From a virus, in the IMG/VR virus record IMGVR_UViG_3300047551_000719, positions 1-39,104 of that record: a stretch of DNA of 39,104 bases; one strand, written 5' to 3'. Shown here piece after piece: positions 6,323 to 25,725 of this stretch. A program made the translations under genes and the position numbers. Under the pieces are notes generated by a model. The model did not search any database and was not told the DNA's origin. It saw nothing but the letters and a program-made list of their open reading frames with translations. How positions within the stretch are numbered: position 1 is the first letter of the stretch; the number at the start of each line of letters is the position of its first letter.

Positions 6323-6555
6323 TGGATAAAGAAACCACGGTTGACGAGATTTTCCCTTTTGATCCCATCCCTCATGAAGACATCACAGCCTGTATACAGG
6401 CTATGGGTGTGATTGAGGATATGGACACTGTTCTTATGTCTGATGAGGAAGTGGAAATGGTGAATGGAATAAGAAGAATGTCGTTACTAATTACTTATCA
6501 GGCTCTTAAAGAGATATTTGAGGGTAGTCAATATGGAAATAACCAACCCACATAA
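6322..6555 (+). CDS. small acidic helical hypothetical protein
   Basis: This 77-residue protein is coupled to the portal gene by a TAATG overlap. It is acidic at the N-terminus and helical throughout (MSDEEVEMVNGIRRMSLLIT). It is not recognised. Its stop lies 22 bases inside the next gene, so the pair are probably made together. Placement between portal and scaffold suggests a packaging or head-assembly accessory role, but that is inference. Confidence 0.65.
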   Translation: MDKETTVDEIFPFDPIPHEDITACIQAMGVIEDMDTVLMSDEEVEMVNGIRRMSLLITYQALKEIFEGSQYGNNQPT

Positions 6556-6787
6556 GGTAGAACACAGAAAGCTAGGAAAAGAAAGAGCGTGGGGAATTGC
6601 CTGGATGGAGGAAAATAAGATAAGTATAGACCCAAGTTTAAGGGGATATAGGTATCTTCTCTACCTCCTTCATGAGCATTTCCACCTAAAACACCCTGAC
6701 TGGAGTGAGACAAAGGTAAGAAAAGAGTCCTCTCTCACAGCCAGATTTCTATGGAAAATGGGATTTAGGTGGGTAGAATTAAAGTAA
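6533..6787 (+). CDS. mini zinc metallopeptidase-like protein (HExxH)
   Basis: This 84-residue protein starts at ATG 6533; an in-frame TTG at 6518 is less likely. It contains LLHEHFHLKHPDW: an HExxH zinc-binding motif with a further His shortly after, as in small SprT- or ImmA-like metallopeptidases. Upstream, KISIDPSLRGYRYL resembles the strand before the catalytic helix, and the protein ends FLWKMGFRWVEL. Similar very short proteins occur in many phages; whether they cleave anything is unknown to me. Lying just before the scaffold gene, it could be a cryptic prohead maturation protease, but most phage homologues are simply annotated as metallopeptidase-like. Confidence 0.7.
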   Translation: MEITNPHKVEHRKLGKERAWGIAWMEENKISIDPSLRGYRYLLYLLHEHFHLKHPDWSETKVRKESSLTARFLWKMGFRWVELK

Positions 6788-6916
6788 GTTGATTAGAGTA
6801 AAATAATTTAATGCTATATTATTTGCAAAAATTGTTTATATAGCTACATAACTCTTTGCTATTCAATACACTTTATATACTTTTACGTTTCATAAACCAA
6901 TCAAAAACAACTACAT
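6788..6916 (+). promoter_or_regulatory. AT-rich leader with a Bacteroidota-type promoter candidate
   Basis: This 129-base AT-rich gap separates the packaging genes from the head genes. It contains TTTG at 6855-6858, 19 bases, then TACTTTTA at 6878-6885. That is close to the Bacteroidota promoter (TTTG near -33 and TAnnTTTG near -7); only the last base of the -7 box differs. The scaffold start codon lies 31 bases after the box. The arrangement closely matches the candidate at 15876-15907. No strong hairpin is visible in the gap. Confidence 0.5.
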
Positions 6917-6920
6917 ATGG
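6906..6920 (+). repeat. 15-base start-region repeat, copy 1
   Basis: AACAACTACATATGG spans the scaffold start codon (ATG at 6917). The same 15 bases span the start codon at 9949. The bases just before are also similar (CCAATCAAA here, CCAAATAAA there). It probably works as an A-rich translation-initiation region. Confidence 0.75.
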
Positions 6921-8197
6921 CTGAGAACTTAGATAGTCCGTCATTTGGAAATTTTAGTATCCAAGACACAATGGAAATGGGACTGGGTAGTCAGGAGTTG
7001 ATGAACGACTTGATGGGCCCTGAAACCTCTACGAGCAATCCTGATGATATTCAAGAGATTGTGAAAGAGGCCACACCTCCAGAAGCCCCCAAGGCACCAG
7101 ATGTGCCCAAAGGGAAAGAGATTGTCCCAAAGGCAGATGGTGAACAACTTACAGGCCAAGACCTCATCTCTAGCTTCCTAGGCGATAATACGGAAGAAGA
7201 GACACAAGAGGCTGAACCTCAAGAAGTTGCAAAACCTAAGAAAGCTGCTAAACTTGAACAAGCCCCTGCTGCTGAAGAACAAACAGAAGAGGGAGCAGAA
7301 GAACAAGAACAAGTGAGCCAGTTTACAGCTCTTTCAAAAGACCTGTTTAAACTGGGTGTGTTTTCCAAAGATGAAGATGAAGAAGATGTTGCTATTGACA
7401 CCCCTGAAGCTTTTCTGGAAAGATTCCAGAATGAAAAGAAAAAGGGAGCTATTGAGATGGTAAACAGCTTCATCGGTCAATTTGGTGAAGACTATCAACA
7501 AGCATTCGATGCTATATTCGTAAAGGGTGTTAACCCAAAAGAGTATTTCGGAACTTATAATAATGTAGTGAGCTTTGCTGAAATGGATCTGTCACAAGAG
7601 AACAATCAAGTGGCAGTGATTAAGCAAGCGTTAGCTGACCAAGGATTTGAGCCTGATGATATTAATACAGAAGTGGAAAGGCTCAAAAACTACGGAGATC
7701 TGGAAAATGTGGCTACAAAGCACCACAAGGTGTTAGTAAAGAAAGAAGCTCAGAAGCTAGCTCAAATGGAGCAAAAGGCTGAGCAAGAGCTACAACAGAA
7801 ACAAGCTATTAAAAATCAATACATTAACAACGTTCAGCAAGTCCTACAGGATAAGCTGAAATCAAAGGAGTTCGATGGTATCCCCATCAATCCCAAACTA
7901 GCTAGCGAACTACAAGACTTCCTACTGGTGGATAAGTACAAGACAGCGTCTGGAGAAACACTCACAGACTTTGATCGTACCATCCTGGAATTGAAGAGGC
8001 CTGAGAACCATGCAACTAAAGTGAAGGTTGCTCTCCTCCTTAAAATCCTAGAGAAAGACCCCACGCTTTCCACCATTCAAAGAACAGGCGTTACAAAGAA
8101 ATCTAACGAACTGTTTGGGGAGGTAGCTAGACAAGTGACAAAGGCTAAGAGCACAACATCTGCTCAACAGCCCAAGACAAATTCATGGTTCTTATAA
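6917..8197 (+). CDS. capsid scaffold protein
   Basis: This 426-residue protein is encoded directly before the major capsid gene, the usual place for a scaffold. The first 140 residues are low-complexity, acidic and rich in Pro, Glu, Gln and Ala. Residues about 150-260 are helical, and residues about 265-310 form a strongly charged coiled coil (KKEAQKLAQMEQKAEQELQQ). A compact helical C-terminus follows and ends NSWFL. Scaffolds guide capsid assembly from inside the prohead and then leave or are degraded. No serine-protease motif is seen, so a separate prohead protease, if any, lies elsewhere. It has its own promoter-like leader. Confidence 0.75.
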   Translation: MAENLDSPSFGNFSIQDTMEMGLGSQELMNDLMGPETSTSNPDDIQEIVKEATPPEAPKAPDVPKGKEIVPKADGEQLTGQDLISSFLGDNTEEETQEAEPQEVAKPKKAAKLEQAPAAEEQTEEGAEEQEQVSQFTALSKDLFKLGVFSKDEDEEDVAIDTPEAFLERFQNEKKKGAIEMVNSFIGQFGEDYQQAFDAIFVKGVNPKEYFGTYNNVVSFAEMDLSQENNQVAVIKQALADQGFEPDDINTEVERLKNYGDLENVATKHHKVLVKKEAQKLAQMEQKAEQELQQKQAIKNQYINNVQQVLQDKLKSKEFDGIPINPKLASELQDFLLVDKYKTASGETLTDFDRTILELKRPENHATKVKVALLLKILEKDPTLSTIQRTGVTKKSNELFGEVARQVTKAKSTTSAQQPKTNSWFL

Positions 8198-11671: not shown

Positions 11672-12847
11672 ATGGCCGATTTTTCATTAACTACGCTCTT
11701 CGTGGTTCCTGTTGGTTCTGGACAAAATGCCAGTATTGCCAATAGCGGTTCTACGCAAGATCTAATCCCAGGCAAAGTTGGTTTCTTCAAAAGCGACTAT
11801 ACAGTTGCTACTGCTGCCAACATCGCTGCCTCTCCCTACTTCTATGTAGCACAAGGTCGTACAAACACTTATCTGCAAGGCTCTAAGCGTTCAGATAAAA
11901 TCAAAGGTTGCCCTACAGCAAACTGTAACTCTAACGTTACAGAGTTCTACAAGGTGACTGGTTGCCCTACAGCCGCTACACAGGTGACTGATGTATCTAA
12001 TTGGAATGTACAGTGTGGTGACATTGTTACCCTTACACTTCGTGCTCATTCTAGCTACATTGACACTCTGTATTTTAACGGTTTCACTCGTAGTGTAACT
12101 GTACAGGCTCCTTGTTGCGATTGTGGTGGAGATCCTTGCACTATTGTAGATGTACCTGCTCTTATCGATCAGTTCATCTATCAATTAGAACTTGCTGCTC
12201 CAGGTAACAACCCTGACAACATTTCTTTCAACACTTTCTATCAGTTCCAGCGTATTGGAAATGATCAGAACGCTATCTTGCGTATCACTGGTAAGCCTCT
12301 GACTAAGTATGGCCAGCCTTGTGATGTTGCTGCATTCCCTTGGGAGTATGACCGTATGTGGTTCCGTACATTCGTGTACAATGGTCCTGCAACCACAGCT
12401 GACTTCATTGTTGCTGATGCTTGTAACATTGTAGCTGATGCCACTATTATTCAGCGTGCTTCTTACCCAAGCGGTACATCTGGAGAGATTGCTCAATTAG
12501 AGAAGAACTTCTACAGCTACCAAGCTGGTTATTTGAAGCACCTCTACAGAATGGCTGGTTATAACGAGAACTTTGAAAGCTGGGTGAGCGATGGTACAAC
12601 TTATGATACCTTCTACATCCGCTTCAATGAGTATAACAAGTCTGAATATCAGTGGGGTGACTACATCATGGAAGACAGCACTGTAATCATTGCTGTTGAA
12701 AAAGGTTCTCAAGCTGCTACTGACGTGAGTGCTATTCTCACTGCTGCTCTTGGTACAATTCCTGGTGATAACACATGTGTAACAACCACATCTACCACCA
12801 CTACGATTTGGCCAACTACTACTACAACATCTACTTTGATTCCGTAA
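11672..12847 (+). CDS. abundant virion protein with Thr-rich tail
   Basis: This 391-residue protein is beta-rich, with several Cys motifs (GCPTANC, and PCCDCGGDPC near residues 148-157). It ends in a Thr/Ser tract (residues about 371-388). Like the capsid gene, and unlike most neighbours, it uses CGT for nearly all arginines, which points to very high expression. It has its own A-rich leader, and a terminator-like hairpin follows. Those features suggest a high-copy virion component such as a head decoration, head fibre or tail-tube-like protein. The sequence alone does not decide between these. The Thr tail resembles tracts in four other genes of this window. Confidence 0.6.
   Translation: MADFSLTTLFVVPVGSGQNASIANSGSTQDLIPGKVGFFKSDYTVATAANIAASPYFYVAQGRTNTYLQGSKRSDKIKGCPTANCNSNVTEFYKVTGCPTAATQVTDVSNWNVQCGDIVTLTLRAHSSYIDTLYFNGFTRSVTVQAPCCDCGGDPCTIVDVPALIDQFIYQLELAAPGNNPDNISFNTFYQFQRIGNDQNAILRITGKPLTKYGQPCDVAAFPWEYDRMWFRTFVYNGPATTADFIVADACNIVADATIIQRASYPSGTSGEIAQLEKNFYSYQAGYLKHLYRMAGYNENFESWVSDGTTYDTFYIRFNEYNKSEYQWGDYIMEDSTVIIAVEKGSQAATDVSAILTAALGTIPGDNTCVTTTSTTTTIWPTTTTTSTLIP
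12782..12835 (+). repeat. Thr/Ser-coding ACN tract (gene at 11672)
   Basis: Eighteen codons, mostly ACN, encode Thr and Ser interrupted by Ile-Trp-Pro. The tract lies just before the stop codon at 12845-12847. Confidence 0.85.
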
Positions 12848-13653: not shown

Positions 13654-13882
13654 TACCATCCCAGCATTGCTGGATGATATTGATTGTAAGCTGAAGAAGC
13701 TTGCAAGCAACCTATACAATAATGTCGTGTTCTCTCTAAACCAACCTGTCCCAGCGGGAGCTATTCTGGATTTATTAAACTACAAACGTATCCTTACGTA
13801 CAAGTTTTGTAATCCAGATTATGCAAAATGTTTTACGGTGGAAATGATTGCTAGTAGAGTTAAACTGTTGATAAGCAAATGA
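13616..13882 (+). CDS. conserved small Cys-containing protein
   Basis: This 88-residue helical protein begins MLSPRLTDCVACSTIP and contains IDCKLKKLASNLYNNVVF and ILDLLNYKRILTYKFCNPDY. It has five Cys residues. The family is familiar to me from uncultured phage genomes but has no known function. It starts inside the preceding microprotein gene and ends with an ATGA overlap into the next small gene, which ties it to the appendage cassette. A chaperone or small structural adaptor for fibres is possible but unproven. Confidence 0.65.
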   Translation: MLSPRLTDCVACSTIPALLDDIDCKLKKLASNLYNNVVFSLNQPVPAGAILDLLNYKRILTYKFCNPDYAKCFTVEMIASRVKLLISK

Positions 13883-14040
13883 TTTGGGGAGCAGTTTGTG
13901 ACTGTTGCATTGAAGAGATGGTAACTTATTACTATCCCAACAACTGTGTCCCTCCCAATCCTGTGCCTACCACCAGCACCACTAGTACTACCACCACAAT
14001 ATATGTTGATTCGTTTTTGAACAAATTAAAATCAAAATAG
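13879..14040 (+). CDS. 53-residue Cys- and Thr-rich microprotein
   Basis: This short gene starts at the ATG overlapping the previous TGA (13879-13882) and ends at TAG 14038-14040; the next ATG follows immediately at 14041. It begins MIWGAVCDCCIEEMV, continues into YYYPNNCVPP, then a Thr/Ser tract (residues 31-40), and ends VDSFLNKLKSK. The exact stop/start fit on both sides supports a real gene. It shares the polythreonine feature with four other genes here. It may be a small linker or remnant of a larger Thr-linked appendage protein. Confidence 0.6.
   Translation: MIWGAVCDCCIEEMVTYYYPNNCVPPNPVPTTSTTSTTTTIYVDSFLNKLKSK
13969..13998 (+). repeat. Thr/Ser-coding ACN tract (gene at 13879)
   Basis: Ten consecutive Thr or Ser codons (ACC, ACT, ACA, AGC, AGT) lie in the middle of the 53-residue gene. 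Confidence 0.85.
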
Positions 14041-15194: not shown

Positions 15195-15512
15195 ATGGCT
15201 TGTTTACCAGGAATGCCTTGCTTTGGGCCCACTAAAGGCCCTGTATACCCAGAAGGGATGGGTCCTTGCACTACACCATGTATTGATTCTGAGTATGTTA
15301 TATACGATGGACCTAACCTCCCTTGTTCTGGTGTAAACACTGGCACAAACCTTCAGGACGCTCTTCAGGAAATAGACCAGAGGATTTGCCCTGAGGCTAT
15401 TGCTGCTGCTGTTCTATTGCTCTTCAGAATCAACCCAACGTTTAATGTTCAGTTTTGTGAACTTGTAAATGGTTGCTTACCAACCACTACAACAACTACC
15501 ACTCTACCGTGA
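15195..15512 (+). CDS. small Cys-rich protein ending in a Thr tract
   Basis: This 105-residue protein begins MACLPGMPCFGPTKGPVYP. It contains a Cys-bounded beta segment and a short helix (TNLQDALQEIDQRICPEAIA), and ends in seven Thr residues plus LP. TNLQDALQEIDQ resembles the short helix found before fibre domains in other phage appendage proteins. Its TGA overlaps a GTG that can start the next gene (GTGA at 15509-15512). It may be an attachment base for a fibre or an adhesin domain; no enzyme motif is present. Confidence 0.65.
   Translation: MACLPGMPCFGPTKGPVYPEGMGPCTTPCIDSEYVIYDGPNLPCSGVNTGTNLQDALQEIDQRICPEAIAAAVLLLFRINPTFNVQFCELVNGCLPTTTTTTTLP
15483..15503 (+). repeat. Thr-coding ACN tract (gene at 15195)
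   Basis: Seven Thr codons precede Leu-Pro-stop. Fifteen bases here (AACCACTACAACAAC, 15482-15496) recur exactly at 24824-24838 in the last tract of the muzzle-like gene. Confidence 0.85.
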
Positions 15513-15766
15513 TTGTAACAATAACATTAACATACGCTGGACCTGATACAGGACCTTTTAATCTCTACTCAGATGTAGATGGATTTATATCTGCCTTTGA
15601 GACAGGAGTGAGTAAAGCTGCTCTTCTAGCTGGATATACAACATCTCTAGTTCCCAATGGAACCACTATTATACGAGTGATGTCTGCTAGTGAGTTATGC
15701 ACAGATTTTACAGACATTGTAATTGGTGGAGAGTGTACAACCACAACCACCACAATACTATTATAA
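15509..15766 (+). CDS. small beta-domain protein with Thr tail
   Basis: A GTG at 15509 that overlaps the previous TGA is the best start and gives 85 residues; an upstream in-frame ATG at 15473 would instead read the Thr tract in another frame. The product (M)IVTITLTYAGPDTGPFNLYS then GTTIIRVMSASELC is a compact beta domain ending in a six-Thr tract. It is clearly related to the N-terminal domain of the protein at 24859: both share GPF, a following SD and G, TGV-K-L, an N-x-T, and a Cys before the last strand. It may be a small adhesin domain. A terminator follows. Confidence 0.6.
   Translation: MIVTITLTYAGPDTGPFNLYSDVDGFISAFETGVSKAALLAGYTTSLVPNGTTIIRVMSASELCTDFTDIVIGGECTTTTTTILL
15737..15754 (+). 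repeat. Thr-coding ACN tract (gene at 15509)
   Basis: Six Thr codons precede Ile-Leu-Leu-stop at the end of the small beta-domain gene. Confidence 0.85.
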
Positions 15767-15769
15767 AAA

Positions 15770-15793
15770 CCCTGTTTTGTTGGTTTTACAGGG
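15770..15793 (+). other. short hairpin upstream of terminator
   Basis: CCCTGT (15770-15775) pairs with ACAGGG (15788-15793) a few bases after the stop at 15766. It may stabilise the transcript end in tandem with the terminator that follows. Confidence 0.4.
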
Positions 15794-15796
15794 CAT

Positions 15797-15833
15797 CTCC
15801 CTGGGGTTTCTACCCTGGGGAGTTTTTATTTAT
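15797..15833 (+). terminator. rho-independent terminator
   Basis: CTCCC (15797-15801) pairs with GGGAG (15818-15822). Inside, GGGT (15804-15807) pairs with ACCC (15812-15815) around TTCT, separated by TG/TG. TTTTTATTTAT follows immediately. It closes the appendage cassette, just upstream of a promoter candidate. Confidence 0.85.
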
Positions 15834-15875
15834 AACCAAGTTGGTTAGCCTTGTTAACAGAAAAGGTTAAAATAA

Positions 15876-15907
15876 TTTGGAAAATATTAAAAACTTTCGT
15901 ACCTTTA
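15876..15907 (+). promoter_or_regulatory. Bacteroidota-type promoter candidate for the tail operon
   Basis: TTTG (15876-15879), 20 bases, then TACCTTTA (15900-15907), with the start codon 28 bases further on. The geometry matches the candidate before the scaffold gene. It follows a strong terminator, where a new transcript would be expected to begin. Confidence 0.55.
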
Positions 15908-15935
15908 TGGCAATTTTAACTAAACTAAAATCTAA

Positions 15936-17186
15936 ATGCCTGAAAATCAATCACTTCTGCATCAGCTGGAGCAGATGCTTCACTGGAAGAAAAGCAAAAA
16001 GTTCTACGCAGAAAAACTACAAATCACTGAGGCTGAGGTAGATGAGTTGATGAAGGAGTTGAAAGAATCAACAGATGCAAGACAGGATGCTGAGATTGGA
16101 AACTATGTTGGAGAGTTGGAAGATCATGTGGTGAGGTTTTTTGAGGATATACAGAAAGGAACAGGTGAAGTGGTGATAAACACCAAAGAAGAAATTAAGA
16201 GCCTGGATGAGTTGATTGAAAAGTGCAAGATTGATACAAGCAAGTGGGAGATAACTAAATACGTCCAAAACTACTGGGGAAATGCTGACCAGCCTCACTA
16301 CCAAGTGAAAGCATGGTTGGGCAAGAAAAAAGATGAGCAAGTGTTCCAAGACTCATTTGTTTCCTTCCTAAGCACCTACACACCTAGTGCATCCCAGATA
16401 GTAGCTCGCAAGGTTGAGCAAGATAAACCAGAAGCTTGTTTAGTTATTAACAAACAAGACTCCCACCTCAACAAGCTAGATATAGGAGGAAAGAATGACA
16501 TTGATGATAGATTTGATGACTATACACAAAAGCTAGAAGTTATTCTACATCAAGCATCTCTTTCCAATCGTATAACAGATATTAAATACATCATTGGGTC
16601 TGATGAGTTCAATAGTGAGTTTACAAACACCACGACAAAAGGAACCCCTCAGCAAAACATCCTCTCCTATCACCAGTCATTTGAAAAGATTTGTGATCAT
16701 GAGATAGCTGTTATCAACATGCTACTTGAACACTGTGAAGAGGTGGATGTAATATTTGTAGCAGGTAACCACGATGAGTTTGTAGGATGGCATTTGGCAA
16801 GTTGGTTACAAACCTACTACAGAAACGAAGACCGTTTGTTCTTTGAGATATCTCCAAGGTATAGAAAGTATATCAGTTATGGCACATCAGCCATGATGTT
16901 CAACCATGGAGATGCTCTAAAGCCCGCAAAGTTAGCTGGTCTGTTTCCTATGGAATATAAAGAAGATTGGTCTGAACATGATCACTTCTACATTTTCACA
17001 GGGGACAAACATCATGAAATGAGCCTAGATTTTAATGGCATTAAGTTCTACCAGCTCCCTGCTTTCTCAACAGCTAAAAGCTCTTGGGATGACAAGAATG
17101 GATATACAATATCCAAGGGTGAGATTACGGGATTCCTCATAGACTACCATGATGGAATGACCAATATATTCAAACAGTATTTATAA
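15936..17186 (+). CDS. calcineurin-like metallophosphoesterase
   Basis: This 416-residue protein has the two-metal phosphoesterase signature in order: QDSH (Asp175, His177), GSDE (residues 221-224), AGNHDE (277-281), HGD (324-326) and GDKHH (356-360). The family includes protein and nucleotide phosphatases and the nucleases SbcD/Mre11. The N-terminal 110 residues are extra: a charged helical region with a possible helix-turn-helix (KKFYAEKLQITEAEVDELMK). It is the first gene of the tail operon, after a terminator and promoter, and is coupled to the next gene by TAATG. Whether it is packaged in the virion, trims DNA or acts as a phosphatase cannot be told from sequence. Confidence 0.85.
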   Translation: MPENQSLLHQLEQMLHWKKSKKFYAEKLQITEAEVDELMKELKESTDARQDAEIGNYVGELEDHVVRFFEDIQKGTGEVVINTKEEIKSLDELIEKCKIDTSKWEITKYVQNYWGNADQPHYQVKAWLGKKKDEQVFQDSFVSFLSTYTPSASQIVARKVEQDKPEACLVINKQDSHLNKLDIGGKNDIDDRFDDYTQKLEVILHQASLSNRITDIKYIIGSDEFNSEFTNTTTKGTPQQNILSYHQSFEKICDHEIAVINMLLEHCEEVDVIFVAGNHDEFVGWHLASWLQTYYRNEDRLFFEISPRYRKYISYGTSAMMFNHGDALKPAKLAGLFPMEYKEDWSEHDHFYIFTGDKHHEMSLDFNGIKFYQLPAFSTAKSSWDDKNGYTISKGEITGFLIDYHDGMTNIFKQYL

Positions 17187-17914
17187 TGCCCACGTTAAGA
17201 AAATTAGTTTCAGATGTACGCTCTGCCCACAAGCTTCTGTCTACAGATAGCTTGATTACGGACAGGGCTATTGCTTCTGAAATAAGGAACAATAGCCTAT
17301 TGCTTATTAAGAGGGAAACTAACCTCAGAAAGCTATGGGCAACAGACACCCTGTTCACCACCATCCCTTGTCTAGAGCTGGTGGAAGTTCCTATTTCTGA
17401 ATGTTGTGATTATGTTGATCCCTGCACAGTGGCTAGAAGCAAATACAAACTTCCAAGCATTGCAGAGGGTAACTATCAATATGTCATTCAAGGTGTTTAT
17501 TCAATTAACGCCATGAGTGGACAGGGTAAAAAGATTAAGGAAATAACCATCAATAGATATATCAATCTTCTAAAACTTCCCATCATTAAGAAGGAAGAGT
17601 ATTATTGGATAAGTAACGACTATCTGTACGTTAGCAATCCTCTGCTTAAGGCTGTACGTTTTGTAGCGCTTTTTGAGCAGGATGTTCCTAACGAACTACT
17701 CTACCCAGAATGTGATTGTGGTACTCCTCAGTATACAGTGGAACAACTGTGTATCAACCCGTTAGATAAGGAGTTTGCTCTCCCAGGTTATTTGGAGAAG
17801 CAGGTGTTGGAGCTTACATCTCAAAAGCTGCTAGCTACATATTTCTCTCTCAAGACAGATATGACAGCAGAAGGTATTGATGGTCAAGCCCCCAATACTA
17901 AACCAACAAATTAA
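17186..17914 (+). CDS. ring-like tail/neck protein
   Basis: This 242-residue protein has an N-terminal helical half (DVRSAHKLLSTDSLITDRAI, then SEIRNNSLLLIKRETNLRKL) and a beta-rich body. A C-terminal segment (DCGTPQYTVEQLCINPLDKE, then a helix) follows. The layout, helical base then strands, resembles connector and ring proteins. It sits between the phosphoesterase and an HU-like gene, and just before a tail adaptor and the muzzle-like protein. That order matches my recollection of the ring-protein, IHF-like, ring-protein, muzzle block in crAss-like phages. TAATG overlaps link it on both sides. Confidence 0.55.
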   Translation: MPTLRKLVSDVRSAHKLLSTDSLITDRAIASEIRNNSLLLIKRETNLRKLWATDTLFTTIPCLELVEVPISECCDYVDPCTVARSKYKLPSIAEGNYQYVIQGVYSINAMSGQGKKIKEITINRYINLLKLPIIKKEEYYWISNDYLYVSNPLLKAVRFVALFEQDVPNELLYPECDCGTPQYTVEQLCINPLDKEFALPGYLEKQVLELTSQKLLATYFSLKTDMTAEGIDGQAPNTKPTN

Positions 17915-18390
17915 TGCGCACCAAGGTTGACTGGAGAAGTGCTAGTAAGGAGAACTACAATAATTTCTGTAAAAAGAATCCATCCGTAAAGCTATCCTTT
18001 GACGAATGGAGGAATATTGTCTACCTATACCTTGACGCTTTTAAGGAATACATTCTAGAAACAGGAGAAAAAGCAAAGCTTCCTTTTGGGTTTGGTGAGT
18101 TTTCCATAAACAAGAAGAAGCGTAGAAAGATAAAAGGAGTGGATGGAAAAGAGTTTGTCAATCTTCCAATAGACTGGAAAAAGACAAAAGAGAAAGGAAA
18201 ACGCATCTACAACTTTAACTTCCATACAGAGGGTTATTTCTTTGGATGGATGTGGTTCAAAGATTCTGCTCGTCTAAAGCACACAGAACTTTGGTATTTC
18301 AAGCCTTCCCGCACTACATCTAGAATGCTCTCCCACTACCTAAAAACCAACGATAGATATCAACACATCTATTGTGAATGGAAAAAATAA
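17914..18390 (+). CDS. second HU/IHF-like protein in the tail operon
   Basis: This 158-residue basic protein contains SFDEWRNIVYLYLDAFKEYI followed by LPFGFGEFSINKKKRR. The helix pair plus GFGxF turn is the same core pattern as in HU/IHF and in the gene at 63. The second half is unusual: FHTEGYFFGWMWFKDSARLK is rich in aromatic residues, and the C-terminus reads YLKTNDRYQHIYCEWKK. Crass-like genomes carry IHF-like genes in the tail block, in my recollection. Whether it binds DNA or has become a structural protein is open. It is coupled to the preceding gene by TAATG, and the next start is three bases after its stop. Confidence 0.65.
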   Translation: MRTKVDWRSASKENYNNFCKKNPSVKLSFDEWRNIVYLYLDAFKEYILETGEKAKLPFGFGEFSINKKKRRKIKGVDGKEFVNLPIDWKKTKEKGKRIYNFNFHTEGYFFGWMWFKDSARLKHTELWYFKPSRTTSRMLSHYLKTNDRYQHIYCEWKK

Positions 18391-18393
18391 ACT

Positions 18394-19365
18394 ATGTCTT
18401 ATTATTACAAATACAATTTCACTAGCCCTGAGCCCATCTATTCCATTGTGAAGGAGGAGTTCAAGAGCTATTTTGACACAGGGGCTGTTGATGACCTGAT
18501 GTTCCCCACCTATCTAGACAAGTGTCTTAGAAAGCTGGGTAGAACCACTTATGTCATTAGCCAAGACATTTTGCATATTTGTGATTATGAGGCTAGACTT
18601 CCAGACAATTTCTTTGCTGTTCGTGAAGCATGGATGTGCACAGCTGTAAATGGTTTCCCCTATCAGTCAGCCAACTCTTTCTATTCTCAGGCTGCTACAG
18701 CCACTACAATACAAGTGAGTCCTTTGACAGTGGGAGGTACACCTTGTACCAATCCTACATGTCAAAATCCTAATTGTGGAGGATGTATGCCAGAGATTAT
18801 ACAGGCTGTGTACAAGACTAATAATCAAGCACCTGTACAATACAGAAGAGAATACTTGCTAAAGCCTGGTAATCTATCTGCCATGAGAAACTGTGGGGTG
18901 GATTATACAAACAACTGGGAGTTCTATCAGCAAGCCCCACCACTTAATGAGTTCACTCCTGGCTCTGCTGGGTATGATAGCTTTGATGTTAGAGACAATA
19001 AGTTTGTTACCAACTTCCGTAATGGTGTGGTGCATATTCTTTTCTATGCTACAGAATATGATGCTGGTGGTAACCAGCTCATCCCTGACAACTATCGTGT
19101 TAGGGAATATATTGAAGCATTTATTAAATACAAGGTGATTGAAACCCTCACCAACCAGACCAACGATGAAACCTTTAACCAGCTACAAACAAAGCTTGCG
19201 TTCTACAAGCAGCAGGCTGAAGAGGCATTCATCATGGCTGACATTGAGATTAAGAAGCAAGATCCTTGGACTAAGCAACGTAGGATTAAGAATGACCTGA
19301 ACAGATTTAATATGTATGAACTCCCCAATCGTACTAACAGGTATGGCTGGCGTAGAAATAATTAA
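18394..19365 (+). CDS. tail adaptor / stabilisation protein
   Basis: This 323-residue protein sits directly before the giant muzzle-like gene. The first 80 residues are helical (SPEPIYSIVKEEFKSYFDTG; then YLDKCLRKLGRTTY). A Cys-rich insert follows (CTNPTCQNPNCGGCMPEI, about residues 117-134), then a beta region, and a long helical C-terminus (QTKLAFYKQQAEEAFIMADI) ending in a basic tail. The helical-beta-helical pattern, ending in a bundle, is typical of P22 gp4-like tail accessory factors, which join portal and tail. The Cys-rich loop is an unusual addition and may bind zinc. The assignment is inference from layout and order. Confidence 0.6.
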   Translation: MSYYYKYNFTSPEPIYSIVKEEFKSYFDTGAVDDLMFPTYLDKCLRKLGRTTYVISQDILHICDYEARLPDNFFAVREAWMCTAVNGFPYQSANSFYSQAATATTIQVSPLTVGGTPCTNPTCQNPNCGGCMPEIIQAVYKTNNQAPVQYRREYLLKPGNLSAMRNCGVDYTNNWEFYQQAPPLNEFTPGSAGYDSFDVRDNKFVTNFRNGVVHILFYATEYDAGGNQLIPDNYRVREYIEAFIKYKVIETLTNQTNDETFNQLQTKLAFYKQQAEEAFIMADIEIKKQDPWTKQRRIKNDLNRFNMYELPNRTNRYGWRRNN

Positions 19366-19370
19366 TATCC

Positions 19371-22300
19371 ATGGCTGAACAAGAAGAAGGCAATATTAGG
19401 CAAGAATATAATGCTGCTAACACTGGTCTTAACATGGATAGATCTGTCACTCAGATCCCCAAAGGCCAGCTAACGTATGCATTAAACGCTGCTGTAGAGA
19501 ACTTTGACTCAAATTCTGTTAACTATCAGAATGAGCCAGGGAATGAGCTTTGCCTCACCTTCCCTGAAGGCTATTTACTTATTGGTGAACACTTCATTCC
19601 TGAGAAGAGCAAACATATATTCTTCCTAGTTAACCCAGAAATTGGTGGCTCTGAGATAGGATATATGGATAACAATGATTGTGTCTATCGCACATATGTT
19701 AACGCTCCTTGTCTCAACTTCAATATTAACAATCCTATTCACAAAGCTGTCCACAGAATCACAGAATGCACAACAGAGGTGTATTGGACAGATGGTCTCA
19801 ATCCCCGTAGATATATTGATCTCAACCCAGAAAACCTACCCTATGTTCTCATAGGAGGCACCCCTGCATGTGATCCTATCTACAGCAATGAGATTGATTG
19901 TAATGGACTAAACGTTCAGCCTAACTTTACTGTCCCTCAGCTTGAGGTGACAAAAATAACCACTGGAGGTGATCTCACTGCAGGAACCTATCAGTTTGCC
20001 ATACAGTATTCTGATGCTAATGGTAATCCATTTACATCTTATTATTCTGTTACCAACCCCACTCCTATTGCTGACACAGGTCTCACTACACCTAATTTTA
20101 ATTATCAGGTGGGTAAGTCTATTGAGCTCACTGTCAGCAACTTAGAAGGATCAGGACTCTACCAATATTTTAACATTGCTGTCATTAAGACAATAAATGG
20201 TGTCACCTCTGTTGAGCTGATAGGCACTTATTTTATTGATGATCTCACACAAACTATCACTTACACAGGTCAGATTAAAACTGACATTCGTCTTACAATA
20301 AATGACATCTTTGAGAAGTTCCCTTATTACGAGATAGCTCAGGATATAACAGCTGTACGTGATATATTAGTGTGGGACCAACTTACTTCTATAGAAAGAA
20401 TCAACTACCAGCAGATTGCTACTGGTATCACCTTACAGTGGGAAACTCATCGCATCCCTAACACAGAAACATATGCTGATGCATTTAATGCTACCAACTT
20501 ACGTGGATATCTGCGTGATGAGGTGTATGCATTTGAGATAGTGTTTCTACTTAAGAATGGTAAACAAACAGACGGTTTCCACATCCCTGGAAGACTGGCT
20601 AATGCTAATGACCTATTTCCTGTCTCTACAGCTAATGATGATTTTATAGGTGAGCCAGAAGATCCTATTGCAGGAACCAGTCCCTATTGGAAGATATACA
20701 ACACAGCCACTGTTACAGGTTTCTCTCCTGGCTATTCTCCAGCCACAAATTATAAAGGACCTTATCAATATGGTGAGTTTAGCTATTGGGAGTCTACAGA
20801 AGAATATCCTTGTAACGAAGAGCTCTGGGGATCTCTAGCTGGTCAGAAGATTAGACATCACAAGTTCCCAGATGTACTGGTGAGTCCTATATTTGAGTCT
20901 GCTCTATTTACAGGACAGGATAACATGGTGATGCAGAAAGATGCTGTGTTTCCACTGGGTGTAAGAATAGATGTACAACAGGTGCAAGCTCTCATCCAGG
21001 CTTCCAATCTTACAGCTGAACAGAAAAGCGAGATAGCTGGCTTTAAGATTATACGTGGTGACAGAAGCACCAATAGGTCCATCGTGGCTAAGGGTATTCT
21101 TAGAAATGTTGGTAAGTATGACCGTGAAGGTACAGAATACTACTTCCCCAACTATCCTTACAACGATTTAAGACAAGATCCATTCTTGTTAGAGAAAAGC
21201 AACTCTTACACAATTCCTCTTGCTGCTACAAGCAATACATCTATTTGTAGGAAGTTTAGCATCTATCCTAAAGATCCTGGTGAGATTGAATATATTGATT
21301 GTTACACGTCAGAAATTGTCAAGAAGAAAATTGGTAATAATCCAGGTGATGATTTTCCTTTAAATACAATTAGTTACATCTGTGCCTTGGACTATCCCAA
21401 GCCTAAGTATATTGGAACTGGTGTATGTGCAATAGGCTCTAATACATATAATGTCTACAGAATTACAATTAATAAGTTTAGTTCATTATCACCAACCGTT
21501 GTATTTAGATTGGTGTGGCCAATCACTAGATGTGGTTTAAGTAATGGAAATACTATTCCTCCTCCTGTAGGATATTCAATGCCTAGCGGAAATGTTGATG
21601 GATGGACCAAGTATTGTGCTGAGAATCCTACAACTTCGTGTTGTGATTTATTTCTTAATAAACCACTTGATATAAACAATCAATATGCACAACTAGTCCC
21701 TACTGGAGTAGGTGATTTTACATTTGAAATTGCTTCACTCACTCCTCCAACATTTGATCAAAGTACTGCTGGTGATGCAACTACAGTTAAGGTGGAGTAT
21801 GTGCGTTCTGTAGGAACTGATCTTTGCAACCCAGATAATCTACAGGGATTTGATGAAGAGGGAGCAAAGTATAGACATGTACTCAACTCTCCTGAAACAT
21901 CCTTTGGACAACCATTCTTGGGTGGTGTTCTTAAGCTAGAGAATGTAATATATGGTGCTGGTAAGGCTCACTTTGTTGAGGTGAAGAAGAATGCGATGTA
22001 CAGGCTATTAAGTGCTGAAGCTCAACAAGATGCGCTTAACAGTGCAAATAGAATTGCAAGCATCACTACAGACTATAACGCTACAGCTCTATTTGCTGCA
22101 TATCAGGCCTATCTAACCATTTATGTAAATGGTATCACCAGACGTAACTATTCTTATTCCTACAACTCTATAGCCAGCTATGACTATAGTAATGTGATTA
22201 ACAATGGCCTAGGAATCAAGCAGCGTGAGCTTGAGTTGAAACAATATCTAATTCCTGGTGTACAGGGAGTGGGTGATAACAAGAATGTAAACAACTGGAA

Positions 22301-24857
22301 CAGAGAGAGTTCTGTCTATCTAAAGACTAAAGAAAACTATACAGGTGGTCCTAGATCTCCTCTTCCATTCCCCAACCAAACTCCCACTATAGGAGGATTG
22401 GTGAATGATAGATCTAGAATGATCTTAAGTGAGGCTGGTGTTAATGAAAATCAAAACAATTGTGGAACTCCTGCTAAGGAGGAATATATAAGTGTTATCT
22501 CCTATTACGGATCTCTCAAGAATATATTTGTTAACCAGTATGGCCAGATATATTCTTATGACACTGTTGACACAGGATTCCAAAGAGACATTACACCTCT
22601 TACAGGTCCTGTTGTAGCCACATTCTTTGGTGGTGACACATTCATCAGCAAGTTTGCTTTCAAGACCAAATTGCCATTCTTTATTGACAATCGTGTGAAT
22701 GCTCCTGATGATAGTGATATATTCTACGATGAGATTGGTAATGTGGCCTATCCTGTATACTGGCACTCAGGACGTTCTATTCTTACAACAGCCGCTGTTG
22801 ACCAGCAAACTCTTACAAACTTCATTTCTATCAAGGCCAACAACCTTGACTGTCCTAATAGTCAAACCCCTATCACCAGCCCTGGTAGAACTTACTACGA
22901 TGGTAAGATGTATCAGTTTGCTTATGGTATTCCTTATTTCTATTGCGAGAGCTCTTATAATGTAGACTTACGTCAAGCTTTCAATAATAGAGAGGGTGAC
23001 TTCTGGCCTCATGTAAGTACAGGTATTCCTGATGATTGGGTACAAGAAGACTATGTACCTATTGCTCAGGACAACACCTACTATTATAATGTGACATTCT
23101 CTAAACAAAACAGAGAGAATACATTCACACATCTTCCTTTTGACTGGAAGAGTATATGTTATACCAACTTCTCATTTAGAGCAATATACTCTGATAGCCA
23201 AGAGCTTGCTACATCACCAACAGTTAATAACTGGTTGATTTACAGAGCTAATTCTTTCTTTGACTTCCCACAAAACTTTGGTCCTTTAGTGAGCCTAGAT
23301 GGTATACAGAACAAAGCTATCCTTGCTCGTTTTGAGAACAAGAGCTTGCTTTATAACACGCTCCTCACTATTAACACCAGCAACCCACAAGCTGCATACG
23401 TAGGAAACCCAACACTGTTTACAAGTGCTCCTCCTATTGACTTTGCAGAAACTGACCTAGGATATGTAGGTAGTCAGAACAAGATGCTCCTGAAGATTCC
23501 TCAAGGACAAATCACTGTAGATGCTAAACGTGGACAAGTGTTCCTTGTTGCTGGCAACCAAGTGCAAGATTTGTCTGCTTTTGGCTCAGGAATGAACAGG
23601 TTCTTTACAGACCATTTGGCCTTTGAAATCTTACGTTACTACCCCAAGGTGGACATAGATAACCATTTCAATGGTGTAGGACTACATGGGGTGTATGATA
23701 GTAAGTTTGACCGTATCATCCTCACCAAGCTTGACTACATACCAAATCTGGATAATATTGTTTATGATGATGTAAACCAGAAGTTTTATTTGGAACAACC
23801 TGTAGAATGCTGTGATGGTGAGGAGTTTATAAGAAAAGAAGTGTTCCTGACAGACTCAGAATACTTCTGTAACAAGAGCTGGACACTATCTTTCAACTTC
23901 AACACTGGTAGCTGGATAAGTTTCCACAGCTATATTCCCAACTGGTATATTGCTGAGAACAACTTCTTCTATTCTGGCCTAAACGATTGCTGTGCAGATT
24001 TTGATGCTGTTGTAGGTAATCCTGTTCCAAACACTACAACCACCACCACAACGCAGTTTGTGTGTGAGTGTAATACATATGATGTAACAAATGCATCAGA
24101 AGACACTCTCTACTATGATTATGTAGATTGCAACAATCAGCCACAAAACAGCACACCAATAGCAGGTGGTACAACACAGACAGTTTGTGTTTGTGGAGAC
24201 CAAATCTATGCTGCTGCTAAAGGGCTAGATGTAACACTAGTGGGAAGCGGATGTCTTACAACCACTACCACCACTACAGCTTTCCAAGGCTGTGGAATAG
24301 AGGGTGTGGCTTGTGAAATAACAACCACCACCACCACTAGCACTAGCACAACAACCACTACTACCACTGCTTTTCCATGTGAGTGTTATGTTGTTTACAA
24401 CTCTACAGAGACAACACATCTAGTGGCTTCATATAAATGTGGGGCTGACTCAATTTCTTACACTCCTGTAGAAGCAGGACAACTCATCAATCTGTGCGTA
24501 AGCACTGAGATGGTGCCTTATTCTGATGAGGGTGTAATCATTACACTATGTGGCACACCGTGTACACAAGACTCAGATTGTGAAGAGTGTACAACAACAA
24601 CAACCACTACATTAGCTCCTTCTTGTGATGATTGTTATGAATACACTGTCACTTCTGAACTAGGTGCAACATTCCAATGGATTGATTGTCAAGGATTTAC
24701 ACAAACAGATAGTGTAGGAATTGATCAGACGTATAATATTCCTTGTGCTGTACAGAATAGTGTATTGTTCATATTTGGTTTTGGAACTGCAACAATAGGA
24801 GCATATTGTGGAAACACATGTGGAACCACTACAACAACAACCCTACCACCTTTATAA
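19371..24857 (+). CDS. giant muzzle-like tail protein with Thr-linked Cys repeats
   Basis: This 1828-residue protein is the probable outermost part of the tail. The first 1550 residues are beta-rich, with landmarks typical of crAss-like muzzle (P22 gp10-like) proteins: IPKGQLTYALNAAVEN, TTEVYWTDGLNPRRYIDLN near residue 145, and RDEVYAFEIVFLLKNG followed by FHIPGR. From residue 1555 the protein changes: five polythreonine tracts separate small Cys-bounded beta repeats (about 1562-1629, a short one at 1637-1650, 1667-1740, and 1748-1818). The first part would form the tail-tip propeller; the extension looks like exposed, flexible adhesin-type modules. The last tract ends directly at the stop. 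The muzzle name rests on recalled features and gene order. Confidence 0.65.
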   Translation: MAEQEEGNIRQEYNAANTGLNMDRSVTQIPKGQLTYALNAAVENFDSNSVNYQNEPGNELCLTFPEGYLLIGEHFIPEKSKHIFFLVNPEIGGSEIGYMDNNDCVYRTYVNAPCLNFNINNPIHKAVHRITECTTEVYWTDGLNPRRYIDLNPENLPYVLIGGTPACDPIYSNEIDCNGLNVQPNFTVPQLEVTKITTGGDLTAGTYQFAIQYSDANGNPFTSYYSVTNPTPIADTGLTTPNFNYQVGKSIELTVSNLEGSGLYQYFNIAVIKTINGVTSVELIGTYFIDDLTQTITYTGQIKTDIRLTINDIFEKFPYYEIAQDITAVRDILVWDQLTSIERINYQQIATGITLQWETHRIPNTETYADAFNATNLRGYLRDEVYAFEIVFLLKNGKQTDGFHIPGRLANANDLFPVSTANDDFIGEPEDPIAGTSPYWKIYNTATVTGFSPGYSPATNYKGPYQYGEFSYWESTEEYPCNEELWGSLAGQKIRHHKFPDVLVSPIFESALFTGQDNMVMQKDAVFPLGVRIDVQQVQALIQASNLTAEQKSEIAGFKIIRGDRSTNRSIVAKGILRNVGKYDREGTEYYFPNYPYNDLRQDPFLLEKSNSYTIPLAATSNTSICRKFSIYPKDPGEIEYIDCYTSEIVKKKIGNNPGDDFPLNTISYICALDYPKPKYIGTGVCAIGSNTYNVYRITINKFSSLSPTVVFRLVWPITRCGLSNGNTIPPPVGYSMPSGNVDGWTKYCAENPTTSCCDLFLNKPLDINNQYAQLVPTGVGDFTFEIASLTPPTFDQSTAGDATTVKVEYVRSVGTDLCNPDNLQGFDEEGAKYRHVLNSPETSFGQPFLGGVLKLENVIYGAGKAHFVEVKKNAMYRLLSAEAQQDALNSANRIASITTDYNATALFAAYQAYLTIYVNGITRRNYSYSYNSIASYDYSNVINNGLGIKQRELELKQYLIPGVQGVGDNKNVNNWNRESSVYLKTKENYTGGPRSPLPFPNQTPTIGGLVNDRSRMILSEAGVNENQNNCGTPAKEEYISVISYYGSLKNIFVNQYGQIYSYDTVDTGFQRDITPLTGPVVATFFGGDTFISKFAFKTKLPFFIDNRVNAPDDSDIFYDEIGNVAYPVYWHSGRSILTTAAVDQQTLTNFISIKANNLDCPNSQTPITSPGRTYYDGKMYQFAYGIPYFYCESSYNVDLRQAFNNREGDFWPHVSTGIPDDWVQEDYVPIAQDNTYYYNVTFSKQNRENTFTHLPFDWKSICYTNFSFRAIYSDSQELATSPTVNNWLIYRANSFFDFPQNFGPLVSLDGIQNKAILARFENKSLLYNTLLTINTSNPQAAYVGNPTLFTSAPPIDFAETDLGYVGSQNKMLLKIPQGQITVDAKRGQVFLVAGNQVQDLSAFGSGMNRFFTDHLAFEILRYYPKVDIDNHFNGVGLHGVYDSKFDRIILTKLDYIPNLDNIVYDDVNQKFYLEQPVECCDGEEFIRKEVFLTDSEYFCNKSWTLSFNFNTGSWISFHSYIPNWYIAENNFFYSGLNDCCADFDAVVGNPVPNTTTTTTTQFVCECNTYDVTNASEDTLYYDYVDCNNQPQNSTPIAGGTTQTVCVCGDQIYAAAKGLDVTLVGSGCLTTTTTTTAFQGCGIEGVACEITTTTTTSTSTTTTTTTAFPCECYVVYNSTETTHLVASYKCGADSISYTPVEAGQLINLCVSTEMVPYSDEGVIITLCGTPCTQDSDCEECTTTTTTTLAPSCDDCYEYTVTSELGATFQWIDCQGFTQTDSVGIDQTYNIPCAVQNSVLFIFGFGTATIGAYCGNTCGTTTTTTLPPL
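24033..24053 (+). repeat. muzzle-like gene Thr tract 1
   Basis: Seven Thr codons (residues 1555-1561) separate the beta-propeller-like body from the first Cys repeat. Confidence 0.85.
24258..24278 (+). repeat. muzzle-like gene Thr tract 2
   Basis: Seven Thr codons (residues 1630-1636) follow the first Cys repeat. Confidence 0.85.
24321..24368 (+). repeat. muzzle-like gene Thr tract 3 (longest)
   Basis: Sixteen codons (residues 1651-1666), fourteen Thr and two Ser, separate a very short Cys segment from the third repeat. Confidence 0.85.
24591..24611 (+). repeat. muzzle-like gene Thr tract 4
   Basis: Seven Thr codons (residues 1741-1747) separate the third and fourth Cys repeats. Confidence 0.85.
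24825..24842 (+). repeat. muzzle-like gene Thr tract 5 (C-terminal)
   Basis: Six Thr codons lie four codons before the stop. Fifteen bases (24824-24838) match the tract at 15482-15496 exactly; in both places a related beta-domain gene begins right after the stop. Confidence 0.85.
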
Positions 24858-24858
24858 A

Positions 24859-25725
24859 ATGCCTCAGATTGTATTCATAAAGCTAGTGAAAGCCTCTCCT
24901 AAGAGTGGACCTTTTGACATTTCTGACAACCTTGGAAATGTTATAGCTACAGGTGTGCCTAAGAGTGAGCTGATTGATGGTGTCACTTATAGCGTGGATA
25001 GCAACGCCACTGTTATCATCATCACTTCCACTGGTAGTTGTAAGAAGTCTATCAACTTCCCTATATCCGAGGTGACACCTAATGAACAGGTGACACTATC
25101 TTTTAGTCAGGCATTAAGCTCCTGTCTGTGGAGACATCTTACAGACGTGGAGAATTACAACAAGTTTTATGGAAACATCGAACCCTATATTATCGAGTAT
25201 CCGTTCAGCTATACATATTATGACGAAATCCTTCAAAGCGTTAAAGACTACACTAAGGCTTATAGGTACTTTGTATCTACTACTGGTGTATTTAATGATA
25301 ACGATAGGATTGAGGTTGATAACCAATGGTTTAACAAAGCTGTATTATACAATGGTCAGCAAAGCACAGGCGTTCTTGAGCTTGTTCCAAAGCCCATCAA
25401 CAACCTCAAAGAATACTTGAAATACCCTGTATATAACACTGAGAGTAAGACAATTACGTACACTAAATCAGACAACTTCTATCAATATAATACGTTCTGG
25501 TCTTTAGTGAAGAACAAATCCCTACCCTTATTCCTAACCACTTGTGAATCATTGTCTTTAGACAAGGTGGTGAACCAGGCTAACATGGATTATGGCAAGC
25601 GTTCTTTCAAGAAAGAACCTCTGCGTGCTAAAGATTTGAAGGTGAGACACATTCTTGATAACGATAGCAAGGTGCATTTGGTAAGTCAATTCATTCTTAC
25701 ACCTGCTCAAATCTCTTACAAATAA
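24859..25725 (+). CDS. conserved tail-associated protein with beta domain
   Basis: The ATG at 24859, one base after the muzzle stop, gives 288 residues; an upstream in-frame start at 24808 would overlap the Thr tract and is less likely. Residues 1-75 (SGPFDISDNLGN, GVPKSELIDGVTYSV, then TSTGSCKKS) form a beta domain related to the small protein at 15509. The rest is different: YGNIEPYIIEYPFSYTYYDE, LYNGQQSTGVLELVPKPINN, SDNFYQYNTFWSLVKNKSLP, and HILDNDSKVHLVSQFI. I recall this C-terminal part as highly conserved in uncultured crAss-like and related phages, which suggests a core structural role. It is coupled to the next gene by TAATG. Confidence 0.65.
   Translation: MPQIVFIKLVKASPKSGPFDISDNLGNVIATGVPKSELIDGVTYSVDSNATVIIITSTGSCKKSINFPISEVTPNEQVTLSFSQALSSCLWRHLTDVENYNKFYGNIEPYIIEYPFSYTYYDEILQSVKDYTKAYRYFVSTTGVFNDNDRIEVDNQWFNKAVLYNGQQSTGVLELVPKPINNLKEYLKYPVYNTESKTITYTKSDNFYQYNTFWSLVKNKSLPLFLTTCESLSLDKVVNQANMDYGKRSFKKEPLRAKDLKVRHILDNDSKVHLVSQFILTPAQISYK

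Follow-up and report, generated by a model that had tools for sequence, protein, structure and literature searches.

Why should a phage place the same small domain at the head of two genes, each starting where a gene with a C-terminal threonine tract stops, and what do these two genes encode? The question is raised by a contig of a crAss-like phage; the corresponding virus record of 39104 bases, analysed at full length, is referred to here as the window. The crassvirus virion gene order of capsid, rings and muzzle is present in it (8225, 17186, 18394 and 19371; Table 1). The ORFs for the proteins P0001 (15509) and P0002 (24859) lie where an earlier note on this DNA had placed them: the GTG start of P0001 (15509) overlaps the TGA stop (15510-15512) of the gene at 15195, for which no match was found among phage records, and the ATG start of P0002 (24859) lies one base past the TAA stop (24855-24857) of the gene at 19371.

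Table 1. Features of the window discussed in the text (positions in bases).
Feature	Position	Strand	Remarks
P22-type portal	3728		
Crass_capsid	8225		
Small gene 5′ of the S-type gene	15195..15512	+	ORF; C-terminal Thr tract 15483-15503
S-type GPF protein P0001	15509..15766	+	GPF domain 15509-15733, then Thr tract 15737-15754
Likely transcription terminator after P0001	15770..15829	+	hairpin pair with U run; folding energy -28.1 kcal/mol (z -4.4)
CrAss_Ring_2	17186		
CrAss_Ring_1	18394		
Muzzle	19371		PF25731
Muzzle N-chain	19371..24857	+	conserved muzzle until about 23984, then variable Thr-tract tail
Variable C-terminal tail of muzzle N-chain	23985..24854	+	Cys-rich domains and Thr tracts
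Three full small Cys-rich domains in N-chain tail	24054-24257, 24369-24590, 24612-24824		plus a short spacer
Thr tracts in N-chain tail, first three	24033-24053, 24258-24278, 24321-24338		separate domains/spacer
Thr tracts in N-chain tail, last three	24348-24368, 24591-24611, 24825-24842		separate domains/spacer
C-type GPF domain, start of muzzle C-chain	24859..25110	+	
Muzzle C-terminal part	25120..25725	+	own gene in the split clade; same chain as muzzle elsewhere

The proposal that P0001 and residues 1-75 of P0002 are one small beta domain used twice is borne out by four approaches. BLASTP aligns the two at 41% over 54 amino acids (E 2e-9 as a single comparison), and their Smith-Waterman score of 86 (z 12.9) exceeds those of 5000 shuffles, which averaged 24.9 and reached 58 at most; in 799 windows taken from the ORFs of this DNA, no comparable match other than P0002 turned up. 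Profile-profile alignment with hhalign gives a probability of 96.9 and an E of 1.4e-10 over 72 columns, and AlphaFold2 predicts the order E-E-E-H-E-E-E for both domains (pLDDT about 84 and about 88). The shared features that had been listed hold in large part: in the mixed alignment GPF and a D, G, S and C never vary, a Leu hardly does and TGV-K is often present, but N-x-T is not conserved in the second family. Over 13 diverse members of this GPF domain eight residues are invariant, GPF and the late Cys included. The predicted structure has six strands and one short helix. Its best VIA match is the RemZ domain (8gl8; Z 6.0), followed by several Fn3 domains at about 5, weak matches by which the modelled fold may be called Fn3/Ig-like at best; a Foldseek search against the PDB returned nothing significant, and no Pfam or PHROG family scored above threshold. 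The domain was found in 540 viral stretches. A cellular origin of GPF or of the muzzle C-chain was rejected, there being no relative in 84,980 species genomes at the sensitivity used.

Beyond its GPF domain, P0002 leads to the muzzle. The ORF at 19371 matches PF25731 crAss_MUZ (E 3.4e-37, 128.6 bits against a curated cut-off of 27), phrog_37948 and the start of phrog_15100, a continuous muzzle family whose positions 1588-1781 of 1783 are in turn matched by residues 88-286 of P0002 (E 3.7e-12). In agreement, tblastn locates the C-terminal region of P0002 at the end of long structural proteins, one in Leptolyngbya phage Lbo-JY46 (E 9e-20) and others in Flavobacterium phages, the FpV4 muzzle included. 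A direct Pfam search with P0002 gave no PF25729 match; its C-terminal part is alignable (alignment A2) with the end of the FpV4 muzzle, which does match PF25729. PDB sequences searched by phmmer and by profile gave no match to P0002, the muzzle ORF or alignment A6, though gp44 is among them. Judged by these sequence comparisons, the gene at 24859 encodes the C-terminal end of a crAss-like tail muzzle. The muzzle is a single chain in crAss001, FpV4, Lbo-JY46, csAssE, MT837925 and many viral contigs. Mapped on gp44 of crAss001, the break falls near residues 1229-1241, between Pfam crAss_MUZ and crAss_MUZ_C, the exact residue being approximate because the gp44 alignment is weak (hhalign probability 65). 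The loop at this site mostly has 16-21 amino acids in continuous muzzles, where a few values are misses of the pattern used, versus a tail of 27-657 in split ones. AlphaFold2 folds the GPF domain well but not the C-terminal part of P0002 alone, whose low pLDDT may reflect only a shallow alignment.

The split is a property of a whole clade. In the best 80 loci matched by P0002 the C-chain is a separate ORF, and when the scan was widened by means of a diverse alignment, GPF was present on every C-chain split at this late turn and on no muzzle unbroken there; both samples are the best 80 matches of a scan, near-copies included, and many contigs are fragments. In the tree of the C-terminal part all 26 split representatives fall into one clade (support 100/98) that is nested among continuous muzzles, L230 and L192 being the nearest, and the split therefore has a single origin in the sample, shared with GPF. 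The trees use 87 and 203 columns and have long branches on some continuous rows. Judging from the sample set and relatives, we read the split-muzzle clade as a freshwater one; its bacterial hosts are likely to be Bacteroidota. The uncharacterised 287-residue protein A0A7S9SU37 of Virus NIOZ-UU157 in BFVD is 57% identical to P0002 in structural alignment, which places the split form already in databases, without a function. A literature search of incomplete coverage returned nothing on polythreonine linkers or a split muzzle.

The late turn is not the only place where muzzles are broken. In L186 and L221 (around 6480-7740) the muzzle consists of three chains owing to a further break at an earlier turn, which precedes the strand YFCNKSWTLSF, and the first chain of L221 has a Thr-tract tail. 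In L216, L218 and L224 (around 7630) it is broken at the earlier turn only, and the second chain starts with MACNCPNINC and is devoid of GPF; this seems to be an independent split in another lineage. Stop-codon recoding was considered for the GPF-less 314-residue C-ORFs of these three and dismissed in favour of such a different split, with a TAA stop and a new ATG. On gp44 the two break sites correspond to consecutive short turns, VYFTYK-DH-CLCYS and FYAFK-DG-KMWEQ, a sequence pattern that hints at matching turns of adjacent propeller blades, on one face.

Whether the two chains are separate can be judged from 56 distinct junctions, which have stop-to-start gaps of 4-27 bases, include all three relative frames and never lack a stop. 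As the frame varies, the chains are separate genes. Programmed frameshifting or readthrough that joins them into one protein could be imagined at the Thr-codon repeats, where slippage is conceivable, and the P0002 frame is open upstream across the tract (24808-25725); set against the junction data, the presence of in-phase slippery heptamers in only 4/56 junctions and the whole P0001-type gene that sits between the chains in some phages, it is highly improbable. Separate start codons in all relative frames likewise speak against attachment of GPF through a programmed frameshift. An intein at the break was rejected since the muzzle ORF has no Pfam intein-type match, and a group I or II intron since the window has no Rfam match. 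Purifying selection acts on both genes (dN/dS about 0.04-0.14; for P0001 compared with L012, dN about 0.06 and dS about 0.64). The window and all split relatives have two ORFs with their own stop and start in place of a single continuous chain, and we file this muzzle as a split variant and not as an ordinary crAss muzzle member. The supposition that the domain may be fused to the upstream gene in other phages is correct for the main part of the second gene, which is joined to the upstream gene there; the fused muzzles are without the GPF domain, and no fused GPF version was found.

The likeness of the two domains had been taken, together with 15 identical bases in the preceding tracts (15482-15496 and 24824-24838), as a sign that the domain probably moved as a cassette with its tract. 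The 15 bases are indeed identical. With Thr codon usage alone as the null, however, 0.76 such pairs are expected among 36 tract pairs, versus the one seen, and the match is no more than chance would give. S-type and C-type GPF domains form two clades with support of 100/100, by which the duplication is old. Nor does the tract accompany the domain: the upstream gene abuts the GPF gene in 72/72 C-type and 59/65 S-type cases, but a Thr/Ser tract closes it in no more than 25/72 and 38/65, respectively; GPF and tract are therefore not constantly associated, and in many relatives the domain occurs with no tract upstream. A recent cassette movement between the two genes of this phage is thus scarcely credible, being refuted by the tree and the codon-usage null; an ancient duplication remains.

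What looks to be exchanged between P0001-type and muzzle genes is instead the variable domain beside the Thr tract, not the GPF domain. Split loci are rich in runs of at least five Thr, with as many as 25 in one ORF, whereas 15 of 16 continuous loci contain no such run. Among the variable domains, five of the 23 clusters with more than one member combine P0001-type tails with muzzle tails, and modules common to the two reach 89% identity between different phages; those in the N-chain tail of the window belong to the same clusters as modules in S-type tails of relatives. Close relatives share 80-91% identity in the muzzle core versus 33-86% in the tail. That the Thr tract serves as a recombination site is our inference. 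In the window, Thr/Ser tracts also occur near the C-terminal ends of two further virion-module genes (11672-12847 and 13879-14040).

The P0001-type protein itself consists in most relatives of the conserved GPF domain, usually a Thr tract, and then variable beta domains; P0001 of the window is without the variable part. Its gene is present in 19 of 20 split-muzzle records and in 0/25 of the others, namely five continuous records and 20 further ones unbroken at the late turn, where the model used was the same that matched in the search of the split-muzzle records, a positive control. In one split record of 114745 bases (L154, G007) no P0001-type gene was detectable; its first muzzle chain has 25 long Thr runs. 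The gene lies either about 9 kb upstream, as in the window, or, in several phages, directly between the muzzle chains. L152 (G006) has a copy upstream as well as one between the chains, the arrangement that a gene caught in the course of relocation would show.

These comparisons establish the split at one fixed turn, the gain of GPF, the turnover of modules and the existence of separate genes under selection. On this basis we consider it probable that the muzzle is a two-gene protein whose chains fold together and whose modules are swapped at the break, with GPF as a dock or cap and the P0001-type protein as an adhesin. The N-chain and C-chain would fold together into one muzzle subunit, and the break would turn an internal propeller turn into a free gene end, at which host-recognition modules could be swapped at Thr tracts with the essential C-terminal part unharmed. 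The modules would be displayed at the tail tip. GPF domains would act as docking or capping units, and if so, the P0001-type protein is proposed to be an exchangeable tail-tip adhesin that is attached via its GPF domain; the modules it carries are probably host-binding. A more specific version, that the clade has split its muzzle permanently for module swapping at a gene end and that the docking GPF domain of the C-chain is paired with the sister GPF on the adhesin, we put forward tentatively.

It may be argued that GPF is only a folding or stability cap for the orphaned C-chain, or has lent it a start codon and leader, with neither docking nor display and with an unrelated role for the P0001-type protein. 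GPF folds well alone in AlphaFold2 and is kept even where the muzzle tail is minimal (L252, L121 and L124), and the very short tail of L252, which has no long Thr tract, implies that the split does not need a display array. We nevertheless regard a mere cap as unlikely, since a sister GPF domain, gained in the same clade, heads another protein whose variable modules are adhesin-like, and since the gene for this protein lies directly between the two muzzle chains in several phages.

The split accounts for the orphan-like appearance, in annotation, of the gene for the C-terminal muzzle part. If the two-gene muzzle works as proposed, a stable break with exchangeable modules is a possible route to evolve host recognition without damage to an essential machine, and the P0001-type protein adds a second candidate for receptor binding in this large, uncultured group.

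Gating of ejection and contact with the cell surface are the roles ascribed to the muzzle, which is highly conserved across crassviruses (PMC10172136). Its reference is the crassvirus protein gp44, with Pfam families PF25731 and PF25729 and PDB entries 7qok, 7qol and 8ckb (PMC10172136). The muzzle described here resembles gp44 in that its first chain belongs to PF25731, its C-terminal part is homologous to that of continuous muzzles and its gene follows those of the ring proteins. However, gp44 is one chain of 1371 residues, as opposed to two chains here (three in L186 and L221), and where crAss001 has only a short turn, a GPF domain and a Thr-tract tail have been added. Insertions reported in the crassvirus muzzle lie in the crass and IG2 regions and leave the chain single (PMC10172136); as with these, the length of the muzzle varies and its surface is possibly altered, but here the chain is broken, and in the late propeller region. 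Tailed phages also carry Ig-like decoration domains, including the modular Ig-like adhesins of gut crAss-like phages (PMC13370021). Both systems place small modules of beta-sandwich type (putatively so here), thought to bind, in varying orders on phage proteins, whereas in the split clade Thr tracts link the modules, which occupy the end of a broken muzzle chain and recur in a second GPF protein.
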